Position numbers and translations under genes: made by a program. Below the pieces are notes generated by a model, which had not been told where the DNA came from, ran no database searches, and was given only the letters and a program-made list of their open reading frames with translations. DNA of 39,714 nt from Prochlorococcus sp. AG-432-D11. Lineage in GTDB: Bacteria; Cyanobacteriota; Cyanobacteriia; PCC-6307; Cyanobiaceae. The stretch lies in NCBI GenBank assembly GCA_003212885.1, contig QCOP01000009.1, forward strand, positions 1 to 39,714, written 5' to 3'. Shown piece by piece: positions 10,836 to 13,261 of this stretch. How positions within the stretch are numbered: position 1 is the first letter of the stretch; the number at the start of each line of letters is the position of its first letter.

Positions 10836-12641
10836 TTAGTTGGACAGAACTTGTTTTTGACTTGAAACTTCTTCGAAGGTCCTTTTCAGAACTTCCTCTG
10901 ATGAAAGTACTAAGGCTTCAATGTCAGATCTCTTTTTTAATTCAACTTTGTCTTCTGAAGCATTTCTACCTACAGTTATTCTTATTGGGATACCTATTAA
11001 ATCAGCATCCTTAAATTTCACGCCTGCTCTTTCTTCTCTATCATCAAGTAGAACGTCAATGTTTTTATTTTTTAGATAAGAATAAAGTTTTTCACCTAAA
11101 TCTTTTTGAAAATTATCTTTTAAATTAGCAATAATGATAACCACCTCAAATGGAGCAATAGATAATGGCCAAATTATTCCATTCTTATCATTACTTTGTT
11201 CAATTGCTGCTTGGGCTAATCTAGATATTCCTATCCCATAGCATCCCATCCAAAAAGCTTCTTTCAATCCTGATTCATTAGTAAATTTTGAATCTAGTGC
11301 CTCAGAGTATTTACGCCCCAATTGAAAAATATGCCCAACTTCTATCCCTCTTTTTTCAATTAAATTACTCTTACTCTTGCTAATGCTATGTTCACCTGCT
11401 CTTGCCTTTCTTATGTCAACAGTCTTGTGCTTAAGCTTTCCTAATAATTCCCAATTGAAGTAGAAGTGGTGCAAATCAATTTTATTTGCACCACATACAA
11501 AGTGATTAAGATTTGCAGCAGTATGGTCTGTAAATCTTGTGAACTTCCTTTCCCAGGTAGAGGCATTATTTAAAAATGAGTCACTTAAATCAGGACCAAT
11601 GTACCCAAAAGGAATACAATTTAATCCTTGAGAAATTAATTTATCACTGGTGATTTGACTTATATTTAAAACTGCTTTTTTCTTCTCTTTGCTAATTTCA
11701 TTAATCAACTTAACTTCGTTGATTTCTTGATCCCCTCTTGTTGAAACTAAAATAGGTATTTCTTCACCACCTTCAAGGATGCTTAGAAAAAGAACAACTT
11801 TAATTATTTGCGAGGCATGTAAGTTGTTGTTAACACATAAAGTCTCAATAGAACATTGTTCTTTAGTTTCTTTAGTTGTAGGTGTTCCATTTTTTAATGG
11901 GACTGCTTTTTCTGGGATTGAAATTGCTTTCTCTTGGTTTGCTGAATATGTACCATCTTCACTAATTAAGATTAGATCTTCTCCTGAATTGGCTGTAACC
12001 ATGAACTCCTGCGAAGCAGCTCCTCCAATAGCTCCACTATCGGCATCCACTTTTACTGTATGAAGACCACATCTTTTAAAAATCTTTTCATATGCATCAT
12101 TCATTTTTTCATAGCTTTGAACTAAGCATGCTTTGTTTTTATGAAATGAATATGCATCCTTCATGATGAACTCTCTTCCTCGCATTAATCCAAAACGCGG
12201 TCTAATTTCATCACGGAATTTAGTTTGTATTTGATAAAGGTTTACTGGTAATTGTTTATATGAATTCAATACTTCTCCAATTATTTTTGTAATAACTTCT
12301 TCATGAGTAGGACCTAGTCCTAATTCCCGCCCTTGCCTATCTTTGAGATGGAACATAATCCCTTCTCCAGCTGTATAGCCTTCCCATCGACCACTTTCTT
12401 TCCAAAGGTCCGATGGATGCAGTTGAGGTAAAAGTGTTTCTAGGCAGCCTGCATTATTTAATTCTTCTCGAACAATGTTGGTTATCTTTTGGATCACTTT
12501 CCACATCAATGGCATATAAGCGTATACCCCAGCGGTTACACGCTTAATATATCCACCCCTTAATAGGAGTTGATGAGAGATGATCTCGGCGTCGGCGGGG
12601 ATGTCCCGCAGCGTCACCAGCATTAGGCGGGAGACGCGCAT
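10836..12641 (-). CDS. proS: Prolyl-tRNA synthetase
   Basis: Charges tRNA-Pro; bacterial-type class II synthetase with the editing insertion domain between motifs 2 and 3. The length is 601 residues. Seen motifs are LLRGGYIKRVTAGVYAYMPL, GPTHEEVIT and FRDEIRPRFGLMRGREFIMK (motif 2), then EAFWMGCYGIGISRL (motif 3) and the anticodon-binding domain with DDREERAGVKFKDADLIGIP. The first 21 codons are unlike the rest: almost all end in G or C, and the switch back to A/T-ending codons is abrupt at about 12578. This stretch also forms a GC hairpin in the mRNA at 12609-12595. It is the first gene of a minus-strand run with psb27, purA and a kinase. Confidence 0.97.
   Translation of the reverse strand: MRVSRLMLVTLRDIPADAEIISHQLLLRGGYIKRVTAGVYAYMPLMWKVIQKITNIVREELNNAGCLETLLPQLHPSDLWKESGRWEGYTAGEGIMFHLKDRQGRELGLGPTHEEVITKIIGEVLNSYKQLPVNLYQIQTKFRDEIRPRFGLMRGREFIMKDAYSFHKNKACLVQSYEKMNDAYEKIFKRCGLHTVKVDADSGAIGGAASQEFMVTANSGEDLILISEDGTYSANQEKAISIPEKAVPLKNGTPTTKETKEQCSIETLCVNNNLHASQIIKVVLFLSILEGGEEIPILVSTRGDQEINEVKLINEISKEKKKAVLNISQITSDKLISQGLNCIPFGYIGPDLSDSFLNNASTWERKFTRFTDHTAANLNHFVCGANKIDLHHFYFNWELLGKLKHKTVDIRKARAGEHSISKSKSNLIEKRGIEVGHIFQLGRKYSEALDSKFTNESGLKEAFWMGCYGIGISRLAQAAIEQSNDKNGIIWPLSIAPFEVVIIIANLKDNFQKDLGEKLYSYLKNKNIDVLLDDREERAGVKFKDADLIGIPIRITVGRNASEDKVELKKRSDIEALVLSSEEVLKRTFEEVSSQKQVLSN
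12595..12609 (-). promoter_or_regulatory. GC-only hairpin inside the 5' end of proS
   Basis: In the proS message, GCGGG (12609-12605) pairs with CCCGC (12599-12595) around a 5-base loop, ACATC. This starts 32 bases after the A of the start codon. Such a stem near the ribosome entry site could slow initiation. It might also be a by-product of the unusual codon block. No regulatory role is shown. Confidence 0.3.
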
Positions 12642-12725
12642 AAGCCTTCTTCCTTTTGTATTCCGCCTTTCGATAATATGTTGTCAGGGCTAATAGCCGA
12701 TTACAAAAGTGTCCCTATGTGAGAA

Positions 12726-12761
12726 AAGCTAGTAGAACTCTTTGAACTCATCTGCTAGCTT
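12726..12761 (+). repeat. 11-bp inverted repeat upstream of the HTH-like gene
   Basis: AAGCTAGTAGA (12726-12736) and TCTGCTAGCTT (12751-12761) are inverted repeats around a 14-base loop. All 11 positions pair in plus-strand RNA if one U-G wobble is allowed. The loop holds two copies of GAACTC or a close variant. The repeat lies 29 bp before the ATG at 12791, in the leader of the HTH-like gene and between divergent promoters. It could be an operator for that protein or an mRNA hairpin. A terminator is unlikely because no T run directly follows. Confidence 0.45.
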
Positions 12762-12790: not shown

Positions 12791-13261
12791 ATGTTCAACG
12801 GGTCATCAGCTAAAAGTTCTAATGACCCTTATAGTTCTTCAATTTCGTCATTAAATGATCATATTCAAGCAGGTATGTCTAATTCAGAATCTTTAGTAGG
12901 AATTGATGAGGTTCAGAAGTCTTTGAATAGATCTCGAGCATCAGTTTATAGGTATTGTAATACCGATGCTCGCAATTTAAATCCACCATTTAATCCAAGA
13001 AAGCTAAATCCTGAATATAGAAGTGATCAAAAGGATCCTTTGTTATTTCATCCTAATGAGGTTGCAAGATTTGCAAAAGATATTTTGCGGATTAAAGAAG
13101 TTTCTGTCGAAGTACTTAATTCACCTTCCACTGCAACTCAAAATGTTTTAAATGCAATTTTAGAAGAACTAAGGATTATTAGATCTCAATTAGAATTTAA
13201 TGATCCTTCCACTAATAAAAAACCAACTCCAGATAATGAAGATGATAGGCCTGCAGTATAA
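12791..13261 (+). CDS. Small protein with a predicted helix-turn-helix
   Basis: A 156-residue protein, not recognised. Residues about 36-57 (VGIDEVQKSLNRSRASVYRY) look like a helix-turn-helix with the recognition helix NRSRASVYRYCN, similar to MerR- or resolvase-type helices. The serine-rich first 33 residues and the acidic last 20 look disordered. A helix at about 95-134 (ILRIKEVSVEVL, then ILEELRIIRSQLEF) may allow pairing of subunits. It is divergent from proS and is followed 66 bp later by ppa on the same strand. A long inverted repeat sits in its leader, which would fit self-regulation (inference). No strong ribosome binding site precedes the ATG. Confidence 0.68.
   Translation: MFNGSSAKSSNDPYSSSISSLNDHIQAGMSNSESLVGIDEVQKSLNRSRASVYRYCNTDARNLNPPFNPRKLNPEYRSDQKDPLLFHPNEVARFAKDILRIKEVSVEVLNSPSTATQNVLNAILEELRIIRSQLEFNDPSTNKKPTPDNEDDRPAV

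Follow-up and report, generated by a model that had tools for sequence, protein, structure and literature searches.

Synonymous-constraint elements and intragenic operators are cases in which an overlapping nucleic-acid signal limits codon choice beyond the demands of the protein. The start of proS resembles them in that its codon choice is constrained in the manner of an overlapping signal, but it differs in being a family-wide, single-copy element placed directly after the start codon of a synthetase gene, with a reader that is a candidate only. MerR operators, which usually lie within the promoter spacer, and RacA sites are comparable in that the proS dyad also stands beside the gene for a predicted MerR/RacA-like winged-HTH protein with a C-terminal helix. 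However, the fold match of the proS neighbour is weak (best E 0.12) and, unlike RacA sites, the proS site is single and not origin-proximal.

Autogenous control of an aminoacyl-tRNA synthetase is known from E. coli thrS. Yeast synthetases bind their own mRNA (PMC6542539). The proS element is similar to these systems in placing structure at the beginning of the mRNA for a synthetase; in contrast to them, no tRNA mimicry was recognised in it, it lies inside the coding sequence after the AUG, and it is a candidate site only. T-box leaders are alike in that they control synthetase genes, but the proS element is not located in a 5' leader, and no T-box or other Rfam match appeared in the window, by which we mean the whole stretch of 39,714 nucleotides analysed here.

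A conserved core at the start of proS

The window comes from an incomplete 0.98-Mb Cyanobiaceae genome. The proS gene (proline--tRNA ligase, or prolyl-tRNA synthetase; product name from an NCBIfam call) occupies positions 10836-12641 on the minus strand and encodes 601 aa. Its closest named matches in the collection searched were uncultured Prochlorococcus single-cell genomes, at 65-66% identity. The initial annotation had drawn attention to G/C endings throughout codons 2-21, and the count of 19 in 20 was confirmed, with CTA as the sole exception; outside these codons the GC3 of proS is about 0.24. The peptide had been described as normal for the family, and this was borne out by the presence of MRVSRLMLVTLRD in most Cyanobiaceae.

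A search with the 27-mer formed by codons 2-10 (CGCGTCTCCCGCCTRATGCTGGTGACG; 12612..12638, minus strand) recovered this core at ≤3 mismatches in 249 of 400 Cyanobiaceae genomes, representing 41 of 59 genera, and the reversed-sequence control gave 0 matches in the same 400 genomes. The core is practically always present once per genome; only G376, a more contaminated assembly, shows two copies. The same synonymous codons are used at codons 2-10 across Cyanobiaceae that span GC3 values from 0.2 to 0.9, and relatives of 35-60% GC share the recurrent spelling ATG CGC GTC TCC CGC CTA/G ATG CTG GTG ACG. When close relatives were checked for free synonymous variation and for absence of the block, nearly all of them were found to carry it, and the check thus did not refute the block.

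To express this conservation in numbers, observed codon identity was compared with the expectation from each gene's own codon usage in 64 distinct genomes. The excess reached 0.58 in the 10-codon segment starting at codon 1, a value far outside what chance would give, compared with a mean of 0.033 (sd 0.024, maximum 0.133) for the 412 other segments of proS. When an AT-rich genome was paired with a GC-rich one, codons 2-5 and 8-10 agreed in 73-95% of the pairs, where 7-16% was expected. The edge of the core is sharp, as the excess is 0.07 at codon 11, 0.16 at codon 12, and close to zero at codons 13-20. Synonymous conservation here exceeds both what codon usage predicts and what the remainder of proS displays, which is the mark of constraint on the nucleic acid. 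Judged by this comparison of genomes, codons 2-10 are shown to form an element of 27 bp on which purifying selection acts strongly at the nucleic-acid level in most of Cyanobiaceae. Beyond coding for protein, they must hold a signal of another kind, probably a site bound for the control of proS or its neighbour.

The same stretch emerged from an exact-match comparison of 1.68 Mb of genome G038 (37% GC) with 320 kb of genome G009 (63% GC). Maximal exact matches of ≥18 nt between these samples number only 19, and the longest of them, at 52 nt, we take to be a tRNA-Pro gene. The halves of the proS block, separated by its variable centre, account for two of the 19. With ≤2 mismatches allowed, the block becomes the longest common stretch outside that tRNA (43 nt; 42 nt at one mismatch), followed by a stretch of 38 nt that is presumably psbA. 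Within the sample compared, the start of proS is the most conserved DNA apart from a tRNA, and it lies inside an essential synthetase gene.

Because of the sharp boundary at codon 11, proS codons 2-21 are best described as a conserved 27-bp core followed by a lineage-specific GC-rich tail. The extent originally given to the block holds in so far as codons 2-10 are special family-wide; codons 11-21 (12579..12611, minus strand) are GC-ending in this genome but lack family-wide constraint, and their GC endings belong to the window's own lineage. A GC-only hairpin noted near the start, GCGGG-ACATC-CCCGC at 12595-12609, is indeed present, but it sits in the non-conserved half and is itself not conserved. 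The conserved dyad or hairpin is a different one, built by codons 2-11.

Two origins had been offered for the block, namely gene conversion with a GC-richer picocyanobacterium as donor and selection on the RNA or DNA for control. The tail gives conversion its support, since codons 11-21 are 100% GC-ending and share 94% nucleotide identity with one other genus (L009), compared with 66% over codons 31-300; for this segment, local recombination or shared retention may account for the resemblance. In contrast, codons 2-10 are alike in the main lineages whatever their GC content, up to the sharp boundary at codon 11, and it is implausible that just 27 bp were converted again and again in dozens of genera. 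No donor is needed, because the same spelling occurs at 20-90% GC3 while the rest of proS has diverged. For codons 2-10, selection was upheld and conversion rejected, and we regard gene conversion or transfer from a GC-richer relative as a very unlikely source of the element.

An inverted repeat and its possible roles in RNA

The core forms an imperfect inverted repeat of the form 11-5-11, GCGTCTCCCGC-CTRAT-GCTGGTGACGC, in which 9 of the 11 arm positions are symmetric, the arms are fixed, and the centre is free. Position counts place the left arm GCGTCTCCCGC (gene positions 5-15) at 12627..12637, the spacer CTRAT at 12622..12626, and the right arm GCTGGTGACGC (gene positions 21-31) at 12611..12621, all on the minus strand. 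The left arm is the best-kept part and is retained even in genus g56, where the right arm is altered to GCTGATCACT. In the spacer, the base at the centre (12624; gene position 18) may be either A or G, with counts of A 59, G 42, and C 3 (n = 104). Positions 6, 12, and 24 show four-fold degeneracy in the sense frame as well as in the most variation-tolerant antisense frame, and they are 87-94% fixed. An overlapping antisense ORF was rejected as an explanation because these positions, degenerate on both strands, stay fixed.

The repeat could act in the mRNA as a hairpin beside the start codon (codons 1-11, GCGUC.CC.GC-CURAU-GC.GG.GACGC), which, when bound by a protein, would gate initiation, for example, in autogenous translational control by ProRS. 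The best argument for RNA is that the element begins exactly at codon 2, directly after the ATG; a role in RNA or translation would explain this position more simply than a DNA site does. The predicted folding energy in the main group is -14 to -22 kcal/mol, and in three low-GC genomes the hairpin is more stable than 98-100% of synonymous recodings. In three high-GC genomes, however, 7-14% of other spellings are equally stable, and the exact sequence is still kept. Plain hairpin stability was rejected on these grounds; the exact sequence seems to matter, because equally stable spellings go unused in the high-GC genomes.

Covariation gave a divided picture. Pairing was kept at 92.2% compared with 90.7% in shuffled data, a weak signal, with 4 of 500 shuffles reaching the observed level. 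Double changes numbered 5 against 1.5 in the shuffles, although a DNA dyad would yield the same double changes. Single changes that break a pair were found in 35 cells and those that keep a wobble in 11, showing no wobble excess. In g56, the altered right arm has not freed the left arm, and the folded region of the window is ordinary in comparison with dinucleotide shuffles (z -0.64). The left arm pairs better with codons 11-16 than with random synonymous spellings of them (mean z -1.2, relatedness uncorrected). Pairing of this arm with codons 11-13 was also considered as an alternative and set aside, its signal being weak and not independent of relatedness. Overall, we hold a protein-bound mRNA hairpin to be less likely than not, but a close rival of the DNA site.

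Alternatively, the element could pair with an antisense RNA or with a small RNA that is conserved and acts in trans; A and G at position 18 would then both face U, in agreement with the restriction of the variable centre to A or G in 101 of 104 sequences. Pairing inside genes has a precedent in the Yfr1/Yfr2 network of Prochlorococcus MED4, where enriched peaks often fall within coding regions according to the main text of the targetome paper, which makes no mention of proS (PMC6778093). Elsewhere in G038, complementarity to the element extends over at most 16 nt, compared with 15 in shuffled sequence, which led us to reject a long small-RNA partner, and a search of the window for Rfam families gave 0 matches, which also speaks against small-RNA pairing. 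A known ncRNA or tRNA was rejected, as the window yielded neither an Rfam match nor a tRNA. Pairing with a small RNA appears improbable to us.

The divergent HTH gene and a putative DNA site

The gene at 12791..13261 on the plus strand, divergent from proS, encodes a small protein of predicted HTH type that is MerR/RacA-like and has a C-terminal helix, a candidate reader by its adjacency and predicted fold. The gene is present in 369 of 400 Cyanobiaceae genomes and adjoins proS divergently at all Cyanobiaceae loci where it is intact and the flank is long enough; the core of the protein is near-invariant. Pfam HTH_17 matched 22 of 31 members weakly, below the cut-off, and an alignment of the protein gave no match to the sequences of solved structures. 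The closest folds to the protein model (mean pLDDT 67) were RacA-DNA and MerR-family (BmrR)-DNA complexes, at a weak E of 0.12. In other cyanobacterial families, many genomes contain the HTH gene, but away from proS, and proS there is without the block. Upstream of the homologues outside Cyanobiaceae, AGTCTCA/TGAGACT is enriched (GAGAC 4.0 vs 1.4 per kb), and this motif is possibly the protein's own operator in those families; AGTCTCA has only GTCTC in common with the proS block.

Between proS and the HTH gene, TCTGCTA and GACAnTTTnaCAATCGG are ultraconserved in low-GC Cyanobiaceae. TCTGCTA (12751..12757, plus strand), invariant in the low-GC alignment, is probably the extended -10 of the HTH gene, a putative promoter role, and TGAGACTCA/TCTGCTA forms the presumed promoter region of the interval. 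The second element, which has the consensus GACAnTTTnaCAATCGG in the proS sense in the low-GC Cyanobiaceae alignment, lies at 12697..12713 on the minus strand.

The reading that we favour, tentatively and with somewhat less than even confidence, is that the 27-bp element serves the divergent proS/HTH pair as a cis-regulatory site, bound as duplex DNA by a dimeric protein, likeliest the HTH protein. Such a dimer would bind double-stranded DNA just downstream of the proS start, and its likeliest identity would be the MerR/RacA-like protein encoded next door. Once bound, the protein would modulate how proS, the HTH gene (as its own feedback), or both are transcribed, and the amino acids MRVSRLMLVTL would follow partly from the site. 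The 11-5-11 repeat with its variable centre has the form that suits a dimer at a MerR/RacA-type operator. Neither a second copy of the element nor a regulon was found in G038; being single-copy and without a second site there, the element points to one dedicated target.

Several observations are consistent with a DNA site: the synonymous constraint is independent of GC content, the dyad is symmetric around a variable centre, the stretch is the longest shared by G038 and G009 outside a tRNA, and a single copy combines with doubly degenerate positions fixed at 87-94%. In addition, the gene divergent from proS encodes a predicted DNA-binding protein, the block is missing in other cyanobacteria, where the HTH gene is not beside proS, and further conserved elements lie between the two genes. 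Against it stand the start of the element exactly after the ATG, the weak fold match of the HTH protein, and the motif AGTCTCA upstream of its homologues elsewhere, which has no more than GTCTC in common with the block.

Replaced or altered sites bear on this reading as well. In genus g18, which we infer to be HL-Prochlorococcus-like, the proS start reads MRVTTSFPLGTLRD, with its own internally uniform spelling ACC TCA TTT CCT CTG GGG (L139-L168); CTG and GGG look unusual in so AT-rich a gene. In genus g9 the start is MRAQDLLLVTLRE. Both genera have the block replaced and the HTH gene kept, the HTH core being nearly unchanged in g18 and still recognisable in g9, and this retention of the gene without the block argues against the DNA site. 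In the 95%-complete genome G025 (L106), all that is left of the HTH gene next to proS is a decayed remnant, the search turned up no intact copy, and the block carries 4 changes, in agreement with the DNA site. This single case is only suggestive, because at least 4 block changes also occur in 11 of 75 HTH-bearing main-group genomes. A simple rule of no HTH, no block was dropped: most HTH-less genomes are also without the whole proS locus, apparently owing to assembly gaps, and among them only G025 is informative on the joint loss of site and regulator.

The single copy per genome, the dyad form, and the RacA-like neighbour could also suit a chromosome-level DNA site (dif, parS, or a RacA-type anchor) or a mobile-element attachment site inside proS. 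However, the distance of the element from dnaN, where the GC-skew origin of G038 is located, ranges between about 27% and 49% of the chromosome and fits neither origin nor terminus. With no fixed position relative to dnaN, a dif, parS, or RacA-type site was rejected. A phage or mobile-element attachment site was rejected for want of viral copies, as a search of IMG/VR gave 0 matches to the element and phages gave only chance-level ones. Chromosome-level and attachment roles are, in our view, highly improbable. Between the two leading readings, we lean slightly towards a DNA site read by a dimer over the RNA site.

Significance for picocyanobacteria

We found no description of the element in the literature searched, which is not proof of absence. 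It is conceivable, though with confidence still short of even, that the capacity for charging proline-tRNA is set by a RacA/MerR-like protein, or by ProRS through its own mRNA, at a family-specific, single-copy recognition site at the start of proS, one that is undescribed in that literature and has been replaced or lost in HL-Prochlorococcus-like genomes. The apparent loss of the site in the latter provides a natural comparison. Elements of this kind can mislead scans for foreign DNA that are based on codons or GC. The genomes of picocyanobacteria are streamlined, and few regulators are known in them; if the proposal is true, these very abundant phototrophs would possess a dedicated regulatory circuit on an aminoacyl-tRNA synthetase, with a concrete candidate for its reader.
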